Assembly (NCBI GenBank): GCA_937146805.1
Contig: CAKZRR010000052.1
Location: 1 to 64,000, forward strand
DNA from: an uncultured Owenweeksia sp.
GTDB lineage: Bacteria > Bacteroidota > Bacteroidia > Flavobacteriales > Schleiferiaceae
Direction of reading: 5' to 3'
DNA length: 64,000 bases
Shown here: one piece after another, positions 22,521 through 57,853 of the stretch
Layout of the letters: every line of letters begins with the position of its first letter
How positions within the stretch are numbered: position 1 is the first letter of the stretch
Translations under genes and position numbers: made by a program
The notes under the pieces: generated by a model
The model's database searches: none
Told to the model about the DNA's origin: nothing
Seen by the model: only the letters and a program-made list of their open reading frames with translations

Positions 22521-22612
22521 AAAAAAAGAACGAATTACTTTACTAATAAAAAATCGCTTAGTTTTACAGAGGGAGTTTTGCAAAGCGTGTATATAAAAAA
22601 ATGATTCTTTGA
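22521..22612 (+). pseudogene. Tyrosine recombinase fragment A
   Basis: A 92-bp stretch about 85% identical to 29112-29205. It reads KKERITLLIKNRLVLQ and has a stop codon soon after; compare KKERITLSLKNGLVLLREYY in fragment B, which matches the region before the second catalytic motif of phage-type integrases (KKDR..LS..L..LLR.YY). No catalytic residues remain here. It precedes, by about 110 bp, the conserved attC-like flank and the next small gene. Confidence 0.55.
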
Positions 22613-29111: not shown

Positions 29112-29470
29112 AAAAAAAGAACGAATTACTTTATCATTAAAAAATGGCTTAGTTTTATTGCGGGAGTATTACAAAGCGTATACACCAAAAAATGGCTCTT
29201 TGAAGGACAACATGGCAAGTAATACAGTGCCGAAAGCTTATAACAAGTGTTTAGAAAACCCTATCAACACGTTTGATGGTTTAAGTCAATAGTTTTGCTG
29301 CCCACTTGCTGGAAAACGAAACTGATAATAGATATACAACTACTTCTGGGACACTCGAGTACTAAGACTACCGAAATTTACAGAAGAGCAAGTAAAGGCC
29401 ATGTCAACCTAATAAAGAGCACATTAGACGAAAAAATATATAGAGGATATAACCGAAATTCCCGTTATCC
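29112..29470 (+). pseudogene. Tyrosine recombinase remnant B (frameshifted)
   Basis: The C-terminal third of a phage-type integrase broken by shifts and stops. Frame one gives KKERITLSLKNGLVLLREYY and AYTPKNGSL; a second frame gives NSFAAHLLENETDNRY (normally RHSFATHLLENGTDIRY, with the catalytic HxxR Arg lost); a third gives IQLLLGHSSTKTTEIY followed by SKGHVNLIKSTLDEKI, the box with the second His and the nucleophilic Tyr. At its end GTTGACAGCAA (29475-29485) resembles the right ends of attC-like copies 1 and 2. It cannot make a working enzyme. A homologous shorter piece lies at 22.5 kb. Confidence 0.75.
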
Positions 29471-29491
29471 CCTAGTTGACAGCAATGTAAA

Positions 29492-29947
29492 ATGAAACCA
29501 CAAATTGAAACTTTCCTGAAAATACTTGCACTTGTCGCTTTGACGACAGGAATGACATCTTGTTTCTATTCGACAAAATATGTTGCTGAATATAAAATCA
29601 GAAACAACGCTAAAACTAACGAGACACGAAAAAAAATTGAAAATGTAATCATAAATCTATCTGAAGATTACGAGCTAATGACCGATAAAAAGTACTATGA
29701 GACTGATACGCTTGGATACTTTGGAAACCCCTACCACTACTTCAAATATTGGACTTCAAAGCAAGACACAGTTATAAGCTTAACATTGAACTATAATGGA
29801 GCATTTGGAAAACGAAAGCAACCACCTTATGAAAGCATGTTAAATCAACTAACTAACGACTTGAACGCTCAATTTAGGGTGCTTGATTTAGAAATAAGCG
29901 AGAAGTCAAATGGAAAGTTGAAGAGTAAAAAAAATAAAAAACACTAA
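29492..29947 (+). CDS. Hypothetical lipoprotein
   Basis: 151 residues with a lipoprotein signal (LTTGMTSCFYSTKY, Cys24). Short N-terminal hydrophobic core, then a mixed alpha/beta part (NETRKKIENVIINLSEDYEL, QDTVISLTLNYNGAF) and a basic tail (KLKSKKNKKH). No family recognised. It starts 7 bp after the GTTGACAGCAA motif that ends the dead integrase, the place where a first cassette would sit after an attachment site. The following 200 bp to the endonuclease gene contain no recognisable feature. Confidence 0.65.
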   Translation: MKPQIETFLKILALVALTTGMTSCFYSTKYVAEYKIRNNAKTNETRKKIENVIINLSEDYELMTDKKYYETDTLGYFGNPYHYFKYWTSKQDTVISLTLNYNGAFGKRKQPPYESMLNQLTNDLNAQFRVLDLEISEKSNGKLKSKKNKKH

Positions 29948-40972: not shown

Positions 40973-42259
40973 ATGAAAAAAGTTCTACTAGCCCTATCAG
41001 TAGTTGTTGGATTTGGAGCCATGGCGCAAAATGCCGCTTCAGACAATCTACACCCAATTTCAGCCAAAGATTTGGCCAAATTGCAAAACGCACAAGCCCA
41101 AAAGCAGGTGCAAAACGTAAAAGCTAAAGCTGCCGGAGGCCCAGTTAGCCAGCGTGTAAGTCATACCGACATTGCCGTAGATCAGTTTGGCACCTCTCTT
41201 CAAACTTACATCTCTCCAATTTTTCAGGACAGTACAGTAATGGAAGATTTTGGAACTCCTGCCAATGTTGATGGCTTTGGTTTCGGTGCTACTTTTGATA
41301 TTCGCACCCCGGTATTTAGCTTATTAGGTCAAGATTATTTTGCAGATGTGGACACTTATATGGTGGACACCATTTACACAGCAGGATTTTATGAGTATGT
41401 AAACTCAAGTACAGCTGGTGATAGTTTAATCGTAGACATTGTATGGGGAGACCCTACAGCTTCTATGTTTAATGATGCCTATGCTTTTCCTGCAGGAACG
41501 TGGACCAACCAACCAACGCAAGCTCCTTTATTAGCATTGGAGTGGAACGCAAGTGCTAACCACGGTTTTGCTGGTAGTGTTGCTTGGGGAAATAAAATCA
41601 CCCTAAAAAAGGCATTAGTTGCTAATGACACTAATACAACTTACCATAAATTTTGGCCATCAACACCTATTACTGTTGGCCCAGGAGAAGTGATTGGAAT
41701 GCTGTTACGCTACAAATCTGGTGAGTCTTATTCTCCAGGTGCAATTTACTTTGCTGGTTCAGGAGGTACAACTACCCCAACTATGAACAGTTTTAGGGTT
41801 GCTATTTCGGGTCCTGCCAACCAATCTGATGACAACAACTACTTTATGGAAGAATTTTCATTAGGTACTAAGTCTTTTGGAATGAGCGGCCCACAATTAA
41901 GCGAACGTTACGATACGCAATTTCCTATTTCTCACACACCACAAGGAACACAAGGTGCTCTTTTTGATGTTTGGGTACATGGAAACTCAACCGTTGGTTT
42001 GAATGAAAACAATGTAAATAGCAACGTTAACATTTACCCTAACCCAACTAACGGCAATATAAATTTAGCTATTACTCAAGGTGGTAATTACCAAATTGAA
42101 GTAGTTAACATGGTTGGTCAAGTAGTATCTACGGAGACTGTTTCTGTTAACGCTAGCGAAACATTGAATAGAGATTTCTCTAATCTTAACAAAGGAATTT
42201 ATCTTGTTAATGTTTCAACAGACAACGTTTCAAACACCATTAAGCTTACTATTCAGTAG
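40973..42259 (+). CDS. T9SS-secreted protein, tandem paralogue 1
   Basis: 428 residues; signal peptide MKKVLLALSVVVGFGAMAQ, an N-terminal helical region rich in Ala/Lys/Gln (AKDLAKLQNAQAQKQVQNVKAKA), a beta-rich central domain of unknown family (residues about 60-345) and the type A sorting domain (VNIYPNPTNGNINLAITQGGNYQIEVVNMVGQVV to the end). Roughly two-thirds identical to the next gene, including the signal peptide and the SGGTTTPTMNSFRV motif. It has a full promoter with a 5' hairpin and a strong terminator, suggesting high expression. Probably secreted in quantity; role unknown. Confidence 0.85.
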   Translation: MKKVLLALSVVVGFGAMAQNAASDNLHPISAKDLAKLQNAQAQKQVQNVKAKAAGGPVSQRVSHTDIAVDQFGTSLQTYISPIFQDSTVMEDFGTPANVDGFGFGATFDIRTPVFSLLGQDYFADVDTYMVDTIYTAGFYEYVNSSTAGDSLIVDIVWGDPTASMFNDAYAFPAGTWTNQPTQAPLLALEWNASANHGFAGSVAWGNKITLKKALVANDTNTTYHKFWPSTPITVGPGEVIGMLLRYKSGESYSPGAIYFAGSGGTTTPTMNSFRVAISGPANQSDDNNYFMEEFSLGTKSFGMSGPQLSERYDTQFPISHTPQGTQGALFDVWVHGNSTVGLNENNVNSNVNIYPNPTNGNINLAITQGGNYQIEVVNMVGQVVSTETVSVNASETLNRDFSNLNKGIYLVNVSTDNVSNTIKLTIQ

Positions 42260-42283
42260 GACTTAAAATTTTGAATAAATTAA

Positions 42284-42322
42284 AATCCCATTAAGGCCAT
42301 GCCTTGGTGGGATTTTTTTTTT
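42284..42322 (+). terminator. Terminator of T9SS paralogue 1
   Basis: AATCCCATTAAGGC (42284-42297), loop CAT, GCCTTGGTGGGATT (42301-42314), with two mismatches, followed by about ten T. The end of the T-tract overlaps the -33 element of the next promoter. Confidence 0.88.
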
Positions 42323-42348
42323 GTTTAAACCAATTATATCTAACTTTG
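42320..42348 (+). promoter_or_regulatory. Promoter of T9SS paralogue 2
   Basis: TTTG (42320-42323), 17-bp spacer, TAACTTTG (42341-42348) match the Bacteroidota consensus. The leader is about 80 bases. The -33 element is made by the T-tract of the preceding terminator. Confidence 0.7.
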
Positions 42349-42434
42349 CAGATAATTAATATGAAGAGTTTTAATTGAATGCTTGGCATTTAAGTGAAAC
42401 TTAATTCTAAAATAACGTAACACAAAAACACATT

Positions 42435-43724
42435 ATGAAAAAAGTTTTACTAGCCCTTTCAGTATTAGTAGGGTTTGGAGCTGCTGCTCAAAATCAATCA
42501 TCAAATGACAGCAGAATTCCCGCCTCAGCTAAAATTACTGCTAAGCTACAAGCAGAGCAGGCAAAAAAACAAGCACTAAACCTAAAAGCTAAAGCAGCTG
42601 GTGGTATTATTAGCCAACGCATGAGCCACACAGATGTAGCTGTAGATCAGTTTGGAACGTTGCTTTCCAACTATATCGCTCCTATTTTTCAAGATAGTAC
42701 GGTAAGCCAAGATTTTGGAACACCAGCCCCTATTAGCCGTTATGCTTATGGTGCTACCTTTGATCTTACATCTCCTGTCTTCTCTTTGATTGGTCAAGAT
42801 TTGTTTGATGCGGGCGATACCTATTATATCGACACGGTTTATGTTGGGGGTATTTACGACATGGTAAACCCTACTTCGGCCAACGACAGTTTAATCGTAG
42901 ATGTTGTTTTTGGAGACCCTGCCGGAGCCAACTTCGTTGATAACTGGGGTTTCCCAGCTAACACTTGGACAAACCAACCTACTAGAGCTAACTTTTTAGC
43001 GATGGACTGGACAGGTAATCCTGCTCAAGGTTTTCAAGGAAACGTAAATGCCGGAAACAGCATTACAGTGAAAAAGGGGTTAGTTGCCAATGACACCAAC
43101 AATGTATATCACAAATTTGCTATGCCGGCTGCTGTTAAAATCAACCCAGGTCAGGCTTTTGGTTTCTTGGTGCGTTACAAATCAGGTGAAACCTTCTTGC
43201 CAGGAGCCATTTACTTTTCAGGCTCTGGTGGTACAACTACAGCTACCATGAACAGTTTTAGAGTTTTAACTTCAGGTTCTGCTTCATCAAGTGATGATAA
43301 TGCTTACTTTTTTGAAGAGTTTTCTCTAGGTACACCTTCAAATGGTTTTTCAGGCCCGCAACTATCAACTTCTCGTTACGATATTACTAGACCTACATCT
43401 CACTCTCCACAAGGAGGATCAGGCGCATACTTTGATGTATGGGCACACGGTAACTCTACTTTTGAATTGAATGAGAATACCAACAACAATGTGAAAATTT
43501 ACCCTAACCCAACTACGGGTAGCGTAAATTTAGCTTTGGCTCAGGGTGGTAACTACCAAATTGAGGTAGTAAACATGATTGGCCAAGTGGTATACAGTGA
43601 AACTGTTTCTATCAATGGTAACGAAACATTAAACAGAGATTTCTCAGAACTTAACAAAGGTATTTACCTTGTTAATGTATCTAGCGACAATTTCTCAAAT
43701 ACTACTAAGCTTACTATCCAGTAA
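42435..43724 (+). CDS. T9SS-secreted protein, tandem paralogue 2
   Basis: 429 residues, the same layout as the gene before it: signal peptide MKKVLLALSVLVGFGAAAQ, helical linker (AKITAKLQAEQAKKQALN), central beta domain and type A sorting domain (VKIYPNPTTGSVNLALAQGGNYQIEVVNMIGQVV). Central domains differ most around residues 95-130 and 160-200, so they may bind different partners. Separate promoter and terminator show that the two copies are expressed independently. The pair arose by tandem duplication. Confidence 0.85.
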   Translation: MKKVLLALSVLVGFGAAAQNQSSNDSRIPASAKITAKLQAEQAKKQALNLKAKAAGGIISQRMSHTDVAVDQFGTLLSNYIAPIFQDSTVSQDFGTPAPISRYAYGATFDLTSPVFSLIGQDLFDAGDTYYIDTVYVGGIYDMVNPTSANDSLIVDVVFGDPAGANFVDNWGFPANTWTNQPTRANFLAMDWTGNPAQGFQGNVNAGNSITVKKGLVANDTNNVYHKFAMPAAVKINPGQAFGFLVRYKSGETFLPGAIYFSGSGGTTTATMNSFRVLTSGSASSSDDNAYFFEEFSLGTPSNGFSGPQLSTSRYDITRPTSHSPQGGSGAYFDVWAHGNSTFELNENTNNNVKIYPNPTTGSVNLALAQGGNYQIEVVNMIGQVVYSETVSINGNETLNRDFSELNKGIYLVNVSSDNFSNTTKLTIQ

Positions 43725-52300: not shown

Positions 52301-54340
52301 ATGAAAAAAGCTTGGGTTTGTTTGTTGCTGTTTTTTGGGCTTGGTATACAGGCTCAGGTAGATCCCAACTCGGAGTTAGAGAATGAGATTGAATCTATTG
52401 CCGAAAGTAGCGATGAAAACCAAACGGATTTAACCCAACTGGCTGAAGATCTTGAGCAACTAAAACAAAACCCAATTGCGCTCAACTTTACGGATGCCGA
52501 GGAGCTTCAAAAAATCCCTTACCTCAATGTTTTTCAAATAAATAGCCTACTCTCCTATCGTAAAAGTACAGGCCTTATTTACTCTAAGTACGAGTTAATT
52601 GCCATACATGGTTTTGATCAGGCTTTAGCCGAAAAAATAGCACCCTTTATAAACTTTGGTACTGAGAATGGCCCTCCTCAGCTAAAGCTAAAAAATGTAC
52701 TTAAGTATGGTCGCCACGATGTTATTTTTAGAGCCGCCCAAGTTTTAGAGGATCGTGCGGGCTACACAGATACCAGCGGAAAGGGTTATTTAGGGAACCC
52801 ACAAAATTATTATTTGCGCTACAAATGGCATTACAGCAAATACCTATCGGTTGGTTTAGTAGCCCAGCACGACCCAGGCGAACCTTTTGGTGGTAGTTAT
52901 CAAAACCTTGGTGCCGATTTTTGGGCAGGACATATAGCTCTTCAAAATTACGGTAAGCTCAAAAAATTAATTGTGGGTGACTACCAAGTAGAATTTGGTC
53001 AAGGATTGGCACTGTGGAGCAGTTTGGCCTTTGGCAAATCGGCCAGCAGCACCGAAATAAAACGGTATGCACGTGGCTTTAAACCTTTTAGTGGCTCCGA
53101 AGAAAATCGCTTTTTTAGAGGAGCCGCTGCTACCTATCGCTTTTTTGATCATTTAGATGTAAGTGCTTTTTACTCTAAAAACACCATTGATGCCAACCGT
53201 ATAGTAAAGGACACCACCGATGAGTTTGACGAAGTAAGCTCGTTGCAAACCACTGGCATGCACCGAACCCAAAACGAAATAGACGATAAAGATGCCAACC
53301 AATTACAAACCCTAGGCGCCAATGCCAATTTTAAAGGTCAGCAGTTTTCGGTGGGAATTACGGGTGTAAACTACCAGCTAGAACACGGACTACAAGCTGG
53401 CTCACAGCCCTATCAGCAGTTTAGGTTTAGCGGAAAACAACTCAGCAACTTCTCTATAGATGCCAATTATCTTTTAGGGCGAAACAACTTTTTTGGTGAA
53501 TTGGCTGGCAGTGATAATGGCGCACTATACGGAACAGTAGGTTTACAAAGTAATCCGGCAGATGGAATTTACTTGAGTATGCTGTACCGAAACATGGAAA
53601 AAGATTACCAAAGTATTTTTAATGGGCCTTTTGGCGAAAGCGGCAACTACGGTGAAAGCGGTATTTACATGGGTTTGCAATGGCAGCTCAACAAAAAAGT
53701 GTTGCTCAAATCATACATTGATATGTACCAATTTAGCTGGCTTAAGTTTGGTGTTGATGCACCCTCTAAAGGTCAAGATATTTTGGGGCAACTTGATTTT
53801 AACTGGAGCCGGTATGCTAAATCATACCTTAGAGTAAAAACAGAGGAGCAAGAAACCAATGGAAACAATGAAACCGCCATTCGTACTTTAACCACACAAC
53901 GAAAAACCCAATTAAGGCTACATCACTCTTACTCATTAAAAGGTGGCTTTAGTTTGGCTTCTAGGTTAGAATATTCTTTTTATCAAAAAGAAGAAACCAA
54001 CGATCGTGGTTTTGCGCTAATGCAAGATTTTAAATACCAACTCAAAAAGCTGCCCTTGCAATTTGCCACGCGCATTGCCTTTATTGAAACCGACAGCTAT
54101 GACACCCGTATGTACGCCTACGAAAAAGACGTGTTATACGCCTTTAGCATACCCGCTTATTACGGCCACAGCACACGTTTTTACTTACTGGGCACTTATA
54201 AAATGAACCGTACTATTAGCTTACAGGTACGCTATGCGATTAGTAGATATACCGACCGCGATGTAATTAGCAGTGGCCTACAAGAAATTGAAGGAAACAA
54301 AATAAGCGACCTTAAAATACAATTACGCATTAGGCTATAG
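52301..54340 (+). CDS. Helix-hairpin-helix and outer-membrane barrel protein
   Basis: 679 residues with a signal peptide (MKKAWVCLLLFFGLGIQAQ). A helical linker rich in acidic residues leads to a ComEA-like helix-hairpin-helix pair (about 55-120; NFTDAEELQKIPYLNVFQINSLLSYRKSTG, YELIAIHGFDQALAEKIAPFI), then about 550 residues of beta-strand barrel, ending IQLRIRL. This is a known Bacteroidota architecture of unknown role; the HhH part suggests contact with DNA or protein in the periplasm. Co-transcribed with the PorV-like gene. Confidence 0.78.
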   Translation: MKKAWVCLLLFFGLGIQAQVDPNSELENEIESIAESSDENQTDLTQLAEDLEQLKQNPIALNFTDAEELQKIPYLNVFQINSLLSYRKSTGLIYSKYELIAIHGFDQALAEKIAPFINFGTENGPPQLKLKNVLKYGRHDVIFRAAQVLEDRAGYTDTSGKGYLGNPQNYYLRYKWHYSKYLSVGLVAQHDPGEPFGGSYQNLGADFWAGHIALQNYGKLKKLIVGDYQVEFGQGLALWSSLAFGKSASSTEIKRYARGFKPFSGSEENRFFRGAAATYRFFDHLDVSAFYSKNTIDANRIVKDTTDEFDEVSSLQTTGMHRTQNEIDDKDANQLQTLGANANFKGQQFSVGITGVNYQLEHGLQAGSQPYQQFRFSGKQLSNFSIDANYLLGRNNFFGELAGSDNGALYGTVGLQSNPADGIYLSMLYRNMEKDYQSIFNGPFGESGNYGESGIYMGLQWQLNKKVLLKSYIDMYQFSWLKFGVDAPSKGQDILGQLDFNWSRYAKSYLRVKTEEQETNGNNETAIRTLTTQRKTQLRLHHSYSLKGGFSLASRLEYSFYQKEETNDRGFALMQDFKYQLKKLPLQFATRIAFIETDSYDTRMYAYEKDVLYAFSIPAYYGHSTRFYLLGTYKMNRTISLQVRYAISRYTDRDVISSGLQEIEGNKISDLKIQLRIRL

Positions 54341-54419: not shown

Positions 54420-54971
54420 ATGCCTAAAGCAGTAAAGTGGATTTTAATAATACTCATTGGATTGGGAGTTTTAGCCTATGGTGGCTTTAAATTTATGCAG
54501 TACAACACCAAAAAGGCAAGCCCCGAATCGGAGTTTGAATTTGTAAAAAACGACACCGAAATTGAAATTTTTTACAACCGTCCGTATAAAAAAGAACGCA
54601 TTATTTTTGGCGAATTAGTGCCCTTTGGACAAGTATGGCGTACCGGAGCCAACGAGCCTACCACGATAGAGGTGAGTGACGATATAAAACTAGCAGGACA
54701 AAAATTAGCGGCTGGTGAGTACAGTATTTGGACTATACCCACAGCCGAAAGCTGGGAGGTGATTTTTAATAGTAAAGTACCTGGCTGGGGCGTAAGTTTT
54801 GAAGGTGTAGCCGCTAGAGATGCCGAGTATGATGCACTTAAAATTACCGTACCTGTGCAAGGTTTAGATGCAGTAGTAGAACAATTTACCATTCAAATAA
54901 GAGAAGCCGAGCAGGTAAACTTAGAAATGATGTGGGATCAAACAAAGATTTCTATCCCTGTAGATTTATAG
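54420..54971 (+). CDS. DUF2911 family protein
   Basis: 183 residues; one N-terminal membrane anchor (about 5-23, WILIILIGLGVLAYGGF), then the DUF2911 domain: IFYNRPYKKERIIFGELVPFGQVWRTGANEPTTIEV, AGEYSIWTIPTAESWEVIFN and later WGVSFEG. The family is of unknown function and probably located at the periplasmic face here. A strong terminator follows 21 bp later. Confidence 0.85.
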   Translation: MPKAVKWILIILIGLGVLAYGGFKFMQYNTKKASPESEFEFVKNDTEIEIFYNRPYKKERIIFGELVPFGQVWRTGANEPTTIEVSDDIKLAGQKLAAGEYSIWTIPTAESWEVIFNSKVPGWGVSFEGVAARDAEYDALKITVPVQGLDAVVEQFTIQIREAEQVNLEMMWDQTKISIPVDL

Positions 54972-54992
54972 ACTTAAGATCTAATAAAATGT

Positions 54993-55025
54993 AAAGCCTG
55001 CGCCTTTTTTGCGCGGGCTTTTTTT
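54993..55025 (+). terminator. Rho-independent terminator
   Basis: AAAGCCTGCGC (54993-55003) with GCGCGGGCTTT (55011-55021), one mismatch, followed by T7. Ends the DUF2911 transcript and meets the operon from the right. Confidence 0.88.
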
Positions 55026-55032
55026 ATGCTTT

Positions 55033-55106
55033 TTAAAACTGCTTACCGATGGAGGCGCAAAGGTTAGGGTAGCTCTTAAAATAAGGCAAACACCAACTAA
55101 GGACAT
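55033..55106 (-). pseudogene. aroA 3'-tail copy C (displaced)
   Basis: On the minus strand it reads KSYPNLCASIGKQF then stop (55077 down to 55033), matching aroA KSYPTFWADLEKVGF and copy B KSYPNFWASLEKVGF. Similarity to copy B, about 80%, extends outward over 50 bp to the stop region of the gene before it (CCTTAG at about 55100). Too short to be a gene. It marks the left end of the region between DUF2911 and aroA. Confidence 0.55.
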
Positions 55107-55113
55107 TACATCA

Positions 55114-55614
55114 TTATGGCTCCCCTTCGTAAAGCACGTCATATTCTTGCGTCAAAGATAGGACCCTTGCATAGATTTTAACGCTAACAAATGTTCCATC
55201 CTCAGAATAAGTCACCATAAACCAAAATGCTTCCTCAGCAATACTCCAGTCTTTCTTTTTCTTTCTATAAAGTTCAAAATTAATCTCAAACTCTCTTCCT
55301 TGCGCAACCTCCTTCTGTTCCGCAATATACAAAGTGCCTTCATAATTGGATCTCCTCCACCTTCTCTTCTCATCTGATCCAAACCTATATTTAGTAACAT
55401 TATTTACTCCATATACATTATTTGAATCTATAAAATCCATCTCCTTCACTATTACATTAAAGTGTTTTTTTTTGTTAATATCAGAAATGAAAGATACTAA
55501 GGTAGAATCAACCTTACCACTCACAACGTACCGGGCGCTATCTTGCGCATACAACAATGTACCTCCAATAAAAACAAGCAGGGAAATAGTTAAAAATGCT
55601 TTATTACTAATCAT
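55114..55614 (-). CDS. Exported hypothetical protein (166 residues)
   Basis: Signal peptide ending LLYAQ (about residue 24). The mature protein is alpha/beta mixed: SGKVDSTLVSFISDINKKKHFNVIVKEMDF, GREFEINFELYRKKKKDWSIAEEAFWFMVTYSEDGTFVSVKIYARVL. I do not recognise a family. It is read in the same direction as aroA but lies 1 kb downstream, between two copies of the aroA tail. Like its neighbour it appears to be inserted material; codon use and low G+C are unlike aroA. Confidence 0.6.
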   Translation of the reverse strand: MISNKAFLTISLLVFIGGTLLYAQDSARYVVSGKVDSTLVSFISDINKKKHFNVIVKEMDFIDSNNVYGVNNVTKYRFGSDEKRRWRRSNYEGTLYIAEQKEVAQGREFEINFELYRKKKKDWSIAEEAFWFMVTYSEDGTFVSVKIYARVLSLTQEYDVLYEGEP

Positions 55615-55779
55615 TCTCTTTTCGTTAAAGCCTTATTTATTAGGAGTCAGAGAAAAGGGCGTCCTGGCATTACGGAGCCGAAGCGTATAGCTATACCCTA
55701 AAATTATTTTATCGTGTTTAAAAATGTTACCATTATACCATCATTTTAACTCTATACGCCCAACACCCCTGTTTGGCCT

Positions 55780-55864
55780 TTAATGCAAAGCCTCTATCTC
55801 AAACCCCACTTTCTCTAAACTAGCCCAAAAGTTAGGGTAACTTTTGAAATATGGTAAATACTAC
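55780..55864 (-). pseudogene. aroA 3'-tail copy B (displaced)
   Basis: On the minus strand it reads KSYPNFWASLEKVGF and continues for six more codons (EIEALH) to a stop at 55780. The part at 55800-55845 is 41 of 46 bases identical to the real aroA tail at 56644-56689. It lies directly after the 212-residue gene, whose last codons (55861 onwards) are part of the repeat shared with copy C. The remaining 165 bp to the next gene contain no other feature. Confidence 0.75.
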
Positions 55865-56503
55865 CTAAGGAACATTATCCCCCCAGACCTCAAATATTTT
55901 TGAAAACTTGGGTTCAATTCCAACAAGCGCAATATGCTCTCCATAGCTCAATCTACTCGTAGACCTCCATTCTCCTTTCTTAATAAAAACACCAAATTCA
56001 GAAAACCCGTAGACTACAAATTTACCAGTAGCAATAGTTCCAAAAACTAGATACTCGCGATTATCCTTTCCTAAATGCAATCTTGAATCGGTCGATGATA
56101 CTAAAAAATCGATTATTGCAATTCTGTTTTTTCTAAGCTTAAAAAACCTTTGAACATATAAAGTGTCATTACTATGAAATTTTAAATGCCATTTATAACC
56201 ACTAGCAATTAAAAAAACCTTTCCCTGTTCATGAACCGTCACGTTATAGTAATTTGTTCCAGAAATATAAGACAAACACAAAACCGCATTAGTTTCAAGT
56301 ACAGTTAACTTCTCAATTGAAATAAAGTCTCCTTTGTATTTACTATGATCTTCTTCTACAAAATTTTTCATATCACTTACATTTTCGCAGTGCATGTGAT
56401 AATAATCCTCTATTTCAGCTATGTATTTATCAAAAGATGCTTGGCATATCGTATATGATAGACAAAATAGCACTAGAAAGGTGATTTTTTTTGCTGTGAT
56501 CAT
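55865..56503 (-). CDS. Exported hypothetical protein (212 residues)
   Basis: Signal peptide ending TICQAS (about residue 23). The mature part is helical at first (FDKYIAEIEDYYHMHCENVSDMKNFVEEDHSKY), then beta-rich to the end (KFVVYGFSEFGVFIKKGEWRS). No family recognised. Its ATG overlaps the stop of the 41-codon gene in front by ATGA, and that small gene overlaps the end of aroA, so all three may be translated in a chain. Its end lies in a repeat that also contains an aroA tail copy. Confidence 0.65.
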   Translation of the reverse strand: MITAKKITFLVLFCLSYTICQASFDKYIAEIEDYYHMHCENVSDMKNFVEEDHSKYKGDFISIEKLTVLETNAVLCLSYISGTNYYNVTVHEQGKVFLIASGYKWHLKFHSNDTLYVQRFFKLRKNRIAIIDFLVSSTDSRLHLGKDNREYLVFGTIATGKFVVYGFSEFGVFIKKGEWRSTSRLSYGEHIALVGIEPKFSKIFEVWGDNVP

Positions 56504-56625
56504 AATCCTTTTGTTTGAGTTTGAGATTCACCATCGTAATCTTCTTCAGTTTTATCGGTGAAATCCGTTCCACCTGTTAATACTTTTTTGATTTTGTAAA
56601 GCCAATGTGCGGCTTCATGTTTCAT
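56500..56625 (-). CDS. Small protein of 41 residues coupled to aroA
   Basis: ATG at 56625 inside the last codons of aroA (11-base overlap) and TGA sharing ATGA with the next gene. The product starts MKHEAAHWLYKIKKVLTGGT and continues with acidic residues (DKTEEDYDGES) to a Gln/Thr-rich end; no signal or membrane segment. Being overlapped at both ends argues for a real, coupled gene, but 41 codons can also occur by chance. Family unknown. Confidence 0.45.
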   Translation of the reverse strand: MKHEAAHWLYKIKKVLTGGTDFTDKTEEDYDGESQTQTKGL

Positions 56626-57853
56626 TGCTTTCCCTGTAGATATGAAACCCCACCTTCTCTAAATCAGCCCAAAAGGTAGGGTAACTTTTATTTACCACCT
56701 CCGGGTTTTTAATTTGAATAGATCCTAGCAAAGCCAATGGTGCCAAACACATGGCCATTCTGTGGTCCTCATACGTATCAAAACAAAGGCCCTCTACTTT
56801 TTCAATTCCTTTTTTTACTCCCAAAAAATCCGGTCCAATTTCAATTTGCGCGCCTGTTTTTTCTAACTCTTTTTTTAAGGCATGTAATCGGTCGGTTTCC
56901 TTAATTTTTAAACTTTGTAACCCCGTTATTTTTGCTCTTATATTTTTAGCGGCATAGGCCACCGCTAGGCTTTGGGCTAAATCGGGGTTGTGTACCAAAT
57001 TTACCTCTATTGTCTTGGGTAAAACTGGCTTTACGCGCAACCTAAACCCGGTTCCCATTCCCAACGATTGTACTCCCAAAGGCTCAAACAAATCACTCAC
57101 AAAAGCATCTCCTTGTAAGCTATGCTCTTTAAAACCCGTTAAAAATACCTCAGCTTTTTGCGCCAATAAACTCTGCAAATACCAATACGAAGCCGCTGTC
57201 CAATCGGGCTCCACACTTATATTTTTAGTCAACTTGGGCACCTCATTTTCAATCCAAATTTCGCCTCCTTCCCACAAAACCTTAAAGCCCAAACTGCGCA
57301 TTATATGTCCCGTTAATTGCCAATAAGGCGTAGAAACCAAAGTGCCGCTAAGCTTAATGTGTAAAGGCTGCAACATACCCGGCCCCAACATCATTAGGGC
57401 ACTAATAAACTGGCTACTCACCGAGGCATCCATCTTTATCGTGCCGCCCTTTAAGCGGCCACCTGTAATATTTAATGGAGGAAAACCCTCATCTCCAACA
57501 TATTCTATTTGCGCCCCTACTTTTCGCAAAGCCTCCACCAAAATACCGATGGGTCGTTTTTGCATTCTTTTACTGCCCGTTAGTCTGTATTTTTTTTTCG
57601 CTTTCGCGGATAGATAAGCCGTACCAAAGCGCATGGCGGTGCCAGCATCTCGTATGTCTACCTCAGGCAAGCTTGCGTTTATTAATTGCTGCATTAAAGC
57701 AGTATCTCTGCTATTAGATAAGCCCGAAATCTCCATTTCAGGAAAGTACATAGCCTGCAAAAACAGCAACCTATTTGATTCACTTTTACTACCCGGAATC
57801 TGTATTTTCCCGATTACTTTTTTAGTTGGATGTGATAGGCGTATTATTTTCAA
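56615..57853 (-). CDS. aroA: 3-Phosphoshikimate 1-carboxyvinyltransferase (EPSP synthase)
   Basis: Joins shikimate-3-phosphate and PEP on the way to chorismate. 412 residues, usual length slightly over 400. Seen: IPGSKSESNRLLFLQAM (Lys/Ser of the phosphate site), AGTAMRFGTAYLS, MQKRPIGILVEALRKVGA, KMDASVSSQFISALMML, and IKETDRLHALKKEL near the C-terminus. Starts 8 bp after aroB, same operon. The last 15 codons (KSYPTFWADLEKVGF...) are of a sequence that occurs again in two displaced copies downstream. Confidence 0.95.
   Translation of the reverse strand: MKIIRLSHPTKKVIGKIQIPGSKSESNRLLFLQAMYFPEMEISGLSNSRDTALMQQLINASLPEVDIRDAGTAMRFGTAYLSAKAKKKYRLTGSKRMQKRPIGILVEALRKVGAQIEYVGDEGFPPLNITGGRLKGGTIKMDASVSSQFISALMMLGPGMLQPLHIKLSGTLVSTPYWQLTGHIMRSLGFKVLWEGGEIWIENEVPKLTKNISVEPDWTAASYWYLQSLLAQKAEVFLTGFKEHSLQGDAFVSDLFEPLGVQSLGMGTGFRLRVKPVLPKTIEVNLVHNPDLAQSLAVAYAAKNIRAKITGLQSLKIKETDRLHALKKELEKTGAQIEIGPDFLGVKKGIEKVEGLCFDTYEDHRMAMCLAPLALLGSIQIKNPEVVNKSYPTFWADLEKVGFHIYRESNET

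Follow-up and report, generated by a model that had tools for sequence, protein, structure and literature searches.

In a 64,000-nucleotide stretch of an uncultured Owenweeksia sp. (contig CAKZRR010000052.1 of assembly GCA_937146805.1; hereafter the window), the 3' end of aroA, the gene for EPSP synthase, is followed by two displaced copies of its own tail, each lying beyond an inserted gene. Serial insertion at this site with displacement of the gene tail is well supported. In the window lineage, DNA carrying an unrelated gene has twice come to lie directly behind the core gene, leaving a 3' fragment beyond the insert, and the older fragment is the more decayed. The same capture and displacement took place several times, independently of the window lineage, in G019, a genome of another genus.

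Displaced tails behind aroA

The anchor gene aroA (56615..57853, minus strand, 412 aa; PF00275, E 1e-73) follows aroB, and the minus-strand order continues from its end at 56615 with a 212-aa gene, copy B, a 166-aa gene, copy C and a terminator-like hairpin, beyond which lie the convergent genes for DUF2911, p679 and p268. The three tails were observed on the minus strand as proposed in a first-pass annotation of this DNA: KSYPTFWADLEKVGF from 56689 in aroA itself (copy A, the functional tail, 56640-56689 in its DNA repeat with B), KSYPNFWASLEKVGF from 55845 (copy B, 55780..55845, reading KSYPNFWASLEKVGFEIEALH and a stop) and KSYPNLCASIGKQF from 55077 (copy C, 55033..55077, also closed by a stop), at successive spacings of 844 and 768 bp. 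The younger insert, unit 1, carries the 212-aa gene (55865..56503, minus), whose stop lies at the copy B junction; at its left end a 41-aa open reading frame (ORF) over the aroA stop (56500..56625, minus) has no family match and may be spurious. The older insert, unit 2, carries the 166-aa gene (55114..55614, minus). A junction stretch precedes each displaced tail, at 55846..55878 for B (J_B) and 55078..55109 for C (J_C), both on the minus strand.

Copies A and B are 88% identical over 50 nt and align with a score of 202 against a maximum of 125 in 500 dinucleotide shuffles, and copies B and C are 80% identical over 49 nt (168 against 112 in 500 shuffles). When A and C were aligned directly the result was not significant, the score being 75 against a shuffle maximum of 93 (500 shuffles), with 162 of 1000 shuffles reaching at least an equal score in a second test; nor did C match the aroA tails of G001 and G003 significantly (436 and 342 of 1000 shuffles equal). 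Since A-C falls within the shuffle range and B-C lies beyond every shuffle, the case for C runs through B only. By these alignments, C is truly related to B, and B in turn to aroA. The two displaced copies start alike and have about 55 nt in common, including about 30 nt upstream of KSYP. The similarity of A to B starts exactly at the palindrome AAAAGTTACCCTAACTTTT of copy B. From KSYP onward B reads on without a break, and it has lost the nearly invariant Asp of xDLEKVGF, which indicates that B is itself decaying. Single-strand folding of the three tail sites gave no signal (z -1.4, 0.4 and -0.9). At about 45 nt, the tail copies carry too little sequence for a phylogeny, and a tail that had been duplicated would look the same as a foreign one; our comparisons cover one genome per species, and a scan of genome contigs yielded distant relatives only.

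The position of copy C shows that there was an insertion. In G003 the end of aroA meets the end of the DUF2911 gene, and in G029, G015 and G037, which have no DUF2911 gene there, the aligned ends of aroA and p679 lie 20, 33 and 52 nt apart. By synteny, copy C sits at this ancestral meeting point of aroA and its convergent gene. Because the two genes abut in relatives and C lies at that point, the 1.65 kb between them in the window is inserted DNA. The same junction is occupied differently elsewhere: in G002, a member of the window's genus, another single gene stands here (251 aa, TPR-like by eye), and the distance from aroA to p679 grows to 3.6 kb in G009, 4.5 kb in G011 and 11 kb in G019. In G011 (L034 2043-6218), genes that by eye resemble polyamine-metabolism genes lie between aroA and p679 on the strand opposite aroA.

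The proteins of the two units had been described as unrelated and exported. They are indeed mutually unrelated (BLASTP E 3.0), while their export is read from signal peptides seen by eye. Neither reached a Pfam family cut-off (the best match was DCP1 for the 166-aa protein, E 0.00037, 20.9 of 22.5 bits), and neither had a match in PADLOC or NCBIfam at E 0.01. In 99 genomes (own included) the best non-self match was at E 0.009 for the 212-aa protein and E 0.011 for the 166-aa protein, with seven and eight other genomes, respectively, at E 0.1; we count both best matches as chance. The 212-aa protein was not found in the viral contigs searched, the cargo not in the plasmids searched, and neither the 166-aa protein nor the cargo DNA in the phages searched. 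Structure models of the two proteins were too poor for a structure search (predicted local distance difference test, pLDDT, 42.7 and 49.0). The G+C content (GC) of unit 1 is 0.328 versus 0.42 in aroA.

Tails of aroA and p679 in a second genus

A full-length aroA search of the 99 genomes located a second aroA tail in G019, as a 77-residue match that sets in where an 857-aa FG-GAP/Por_Secre_tail gene has its stop codon. A third tail, first spotted by eye, scored 197 against a shuffle maximum of 126 (0 of 1000 shuffles equal) and adjoins the end of p679, just as copy C of the window adjoins the end of the DUF2911 gene. A tail-only scan also found three copies of the p679 tail in this insert, on the other strand from the aroA tails. 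They lie 3394, 7678 and 8534 nt from p679 with 82, 63 and 53% identity, and in no case did any of 300 shuffles equal the match to the real tail. The order is aroA, a 671-aa gene, a p679 tail, a 222-aa gene (minus), a p679 tail, the 857-aa gene and an aroA tail, followed by a protease-like gene, an 80-aa ORF, a p679 tail, TPR-like genes, 523- and 133-aa ORFs, the last aroA tail and p679. The aroA copies start at residues ~326 and ~379, so that fragment length varies, and the last cargo (the 523- and 133-aa ORFs, which we take to be SprB-like) is apparently cut off at the junction. GC of the inserts is 0.357 and 0.388 versus 0.472 in aroA. No toxin or defence family was found in the cargo tested, by scans of the window and G019 and by PADLOC on the window.

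GQNLI, the G019 type, occurs in two of the p679 fragments and RQNLI in the third, in contrast to p679 tails from the nine other genomes in the comparison. In an alignment, two of the fragments appear by eye to have a stretch in common (TCTTCCTAAAA), located immediately upstream of the tail. A motif common to the window and G019 junctions, TTCCTTAG, had also been suspected by eye; it was unsupported, with 20 and 60 of 300 shuffles equal for B and C against piece P1, and 69 to 261 of 300 for the other five pairs of B or C with G019 or G002 pieces.

Taken with the position of C, the independent repetition of the structure in G019 bears out the proposal that insertions took place serially at the 3' end of aroA and displaced its tail. 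The order of ages proposed with it, in which the outermost and most decayed copy is the oldest, agrees with B being nearer to A than C is and with the divergence of the G019 p679 tails with distance. The further idea that the process is special to aroA and adds single-gene units did not hold, as p679 is also affected in G019 and the units there hold several genes.

Displaced tails are infrequent in the DNA surveyed. The tail-only scan, which used ORFs of at least 150 aa and looked on the same strand within 15 kb, recognises a fragment only where an intact copy of the gene persists nearby; two putative recombinase fragments of the window (22521-22612 and 29112-29500) escaped it. Over 626 ORFs in ~858 kb of G002 and G000, the genome of the window, plus 16 kb of G019, it gave five hits besides the window and G019 arrays. 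Two of these, one in each of G000 and G002, look like tandem oxidase-subunit paralogues, and three fall on what look like shared C-terminal domains of type IX secretion type, named by eye except for the sorting domain of a 976-aa protein. Nothing new came from a wider scan with 20 kb reach, which took in 167 ORFs in 247 kb of G019 (the 16 kb included again) and, at other aroA loci, 142 ORFs in 193 kb; the total scanned was ~1.3 Mb. An extra aroA-tail profile match within 10 kb of aroA was present in two of 88 family genomes (G000 and G019), the remaining extra matches in the family lying on other contigs and being weak or, in G002, lying at a great distance. One of 88 genomes (G019) had additional p679 tails close to p679, 37 of the 88 having any p679 match. 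At the level of the order, multiple aroA profile matches at E 0.01 were present in 3 of 393 genomes (G000, G019 and G166). These profile counts miss short remnants, as copy C and the third G019 tail were missed. The second match of G166 is an aroA-like piece at a contig edge. Besides G019 and the window, an own-tail scan of 20 aroA loci put L039 (G053) above its shuffles (49 versus 43), with a gapped match inside an apparent other gene, and we did not count it. A literature search for aroA as an integration site found no paper, which we do not take to mean that nothing is in print.

One of the three G000 profile matches is a second EPSP-synthase-like gene on another contig (C32, 891-2138, minus), 35% identical to the window aroA; if functional, it might relax the constraint on aroA.

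Proposed capture by core-gene homology and its alternatives

We lean, by a little more than an even chance, towards the junction of aroA with its convergent neighbour being a recurrent capture site at which recombination is anchored by homology in the core gene. The incoming DNA, whether a linear piece or, following the Rhs model, a circle, would carry part of aroA or, in the G019 lineage, of p679, and homologous recombination within the gene body would pair this part with the resident copy. The other end of the incoming DNA would join inside the 3' part of the resident gene, by illegitimate recombination or through short homology to an already displaced tail. The outcome would be a whole gene with cargo behind it and an old tail that is stranded and decays, and the tail repeats would then favour further events. 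For G019 we would reconstruct a series of aroA-anchored events, together with two p679-anchored events in a donor or ancestor. Such joining fits better than a single att site because G019 has two anchor genes and differing start points. Core-gene-anchored recombination is also supported by the low GC of the inserts and by the scan for recombinases, which covered the three window insert ORFs and, of the nine G019 insert ORFs of at least 80 aa, all but those of 80 and 133 aa (seven), and which detected no recombinase.

Several observations weigh against this interpretation. The junction stretches of B and C are alike, with ~10 extra nt relative to aroA, even though their cargo genes are unrelated to each other. 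Illegitimate joints made twice independently would not be expected to give this, and an exchange between displaced tails or a shared unit end is needed. Either displaced tails exchange, or an incoming unit crossed over inside an already displaced tail, or the units have a common right end; the crossover would also explain why B reads on unbroken from KSYP. None of 2000 shuffles equalled the match of J_B to J_C. J_B is possibly derived from aroA: against the NPEVV codons of relatives' aroA, 13, 23 and 35 of 2000 shuffles were equal in three genomes and 1446 in a fourth, and 203 of 2000 were equal for the window aroA, where the likeness is not clear. J_C had no likeness of its own to aroA (174 to 835 of 2000 shuffles equal). 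The insert of G002 had no detectable displaced tail (524 of 1000 shuffles equal), and no displaced tail was detected in the inserts of G009 and G011. Joining of this type is also described as rare in the part of PMC5361080 on which we draw, yet the aroA junction was hit repeatedly.

An unlikely alternative, to which we give roughly one chance in five, is that no foreign tail arrived and that part of the resident aroA tail was duplicated as the cargo entered, by a long target duplication or a segmental one. This would explain the unremarkable functional tail, and it suits both the 88% identity of A and B and the G019-type GQNLI, or RQNLI, of the p679 fragments there. The duplications would measure 50 to 230 nt, which is long for known transposition, the scanned insert ORFs showed no transposase, and the junction that B and C share is left unexplained here too. 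A second alternative is that a tyrosine recombinase acting in trans put single-gene units with a conserved right end into a fixed core of the aroA tail, marked by the palindrome of copy B. In its favour, B and C share a right-end stretch despite their unrelated cargo, and the A-B similarity begins exactly at the palindrome. The genome does encode tyrosine recombinases (seven PF00589 matches, some only fragments). Such site-specific insertion is nevertheless improbable, and more so than duplication: the insert ORFs scanned hold no recombinase, the G019 fragments start at two points of aroA and involve p679 too, and the left ends of the two window units are unlike (101 of 300 shuffles equal). 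By eye, the palindrome in this form is missing from the tails of aroA in G001, G002 and G003, and a search of the own genome returned no other good copy of the B region, though the same search missed C and so would miss diverged copies. For the same reasons, the insert genes scanned and the G019 breakpoints, the likeness to integrase-driven islands at tRNA genes that the first-pass annotation had drawn is unsupported.

It could finally be held that the tail matches are due to chance or convergence and that the two cargo genes are an old, fixed pair of neighbours, for which only the A-C comparison, inside the shuffle range, can be cited. A-B and B-C, both above all 500 shuffles, already refute this on alignment statistics. 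Neither cargo gene has a credible relative in the related genomes searched and the pattern is repeated in G019, so that we consider this reading to have almost no probability. A reading as an integron or dispersed element was also rejected, on searches of limited sensitivity. Searching the own genome with the 101-nt B region gave only aroA and short weak matches, with C missed even at E 10; at E <0.1 aroA was the only match besides B itself. A search with the 186-nt stretch that precedes unit 2 yielded a single 37-nt match at 80% (E 0.0017), the rest being weak matches, within four genomes of the genus. No integrase turned up in the window insert ORFs, and the neighbours aroB, aroA, DUF2911, p679 and p268 are not integrases.

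Homology-anchored capture may be compared with known arrays. Genomic islands that occupy the 3' ends of tRNA genes or protein genes encode an integrase and depend on a single core site; as here, the gene end is restored on one side with the displaced end on the other, but the scanned ORFs of our inserts hold no integrase and G019 has several breakpoints. In integron cassette arrays the newest units lie nearest the anchor and a short repeat follows each gene, which resembles the window, whereas here no integrase stands beside the array and no recurring attC-like site was detected in the genome, within the limited sensitivity of the search. Closer parallels are displacement arrays. In the sections of Jackson et al. 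(2009; PMC2935791) used here, Rhs tips are proposed to be displaced sequentially, by way of circular intermediates, and a conserved gene is followed, as in our case, by GC-poor DNA with core fragments of variable length as direct repeats. By that account it is the C-terminus itself that varies, while the aroA tail remains an aroA tail in a biosynthetic gene, and G019 involves the convergent neighbour as well. For the type VI secretion system (T6SS) of V. cholerae, the corresponding part of Kirchberger et al. (2017; PMC5361080) proposes effector displacement, perhaps by homology-facilitated illegitimate recombination, with an upstream anchor, a non-homologous downstream joint, and the old 3' end and its genes pushed back by order of arrival, all in common with our reading of the aroA site. 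The cargo there consists of effector and immunity genes, unlike the exported (by eye) orphans without a PADLOC match in the window. The traits of such arrays that we observed are serial 3' fragments of the anchor separated by unrelated genes, with older ones farther away and, in G019, of variable length; no variable toxin tip with an immunity gene was found in the cargo tested, and the displaced tail is still that of EPSP synthase. We favour displacement of the kind proposed for Rhs and T6SS arrays, acting here on ordinary core genes.

Neighbouring features and wider meaning

Between copy C and the convergent genes, a hairpin followed by a T run (54985..55022, strand unassigned) is a probable shared terminator; Rfam gave only sub-threshold matches at or around it. 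The DUF2911 gene (54420..54971, plus; PF11138, E 3.4e-47) is by synteny the convergent neighbour in this genus, and p679 (52301..54340, plus), the homologue of which has the displaced tails in G019, is the conserved convergent neighbour of aroA across the family. Near its N-terminus p679 has a ComEA-like helix-hairpin-helix (HHH_3, E 1.3e-6; the comE model was far below cut-off), and by eye it looks like an outer-membrane barrel protein. A PorV/PorQ-like gene (55 of 90 bits, below cut-off) adjoins p679 at the recurrent insertion site.

Elsewhere in the window, the two decayed fragments at 22521-22612 and 29112-29500 resemble a tyrosine recombinase in its C-terminal half (one piece matched PF00589 at E 0.038, below cut-off). 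Between them lies a 6.6 kb block that holds small genes and an FG-GAP/type IX-sorted protein. The first fragment begins ~12 nt past the stop of an erythromycin-esterase-like gene. Kin of these fragments occur elsewhere in the genome (C1 and C34), and two short C1 ORFs start with nearly identical residues. It is possible that this block is another gene-tail array. At 40973-43724 lie tandem paralogous exported proteins of 428 and 429 aa, with DNA repeats of 72 to 81% at a spacing of 1462-1465 nt.

Tentatively, and with the odds somewhat against so broad a claim, we suggest that the 3' ends of convergent housekeeping genes are reusable docking sites, where either neighbour can serve as anchor, stranded tails log the arrivals, and tail repeats allow tandem growth by plain homologous recombination. 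Displacement arrays would then be a general way for genomes to gain genes, no longer confined to toxin loci. If the narrower reading of the aroA site is right, a process associated with toxin loci extends to a biosynthetic gene, and core-gene tails in intergenic DNA would give a relative chronology of gene acquisition and would suggest how a single orphan gene can settle at a fixed place with no mobile element involved. Stranded tails would also make the integration of such element-free genes testable.

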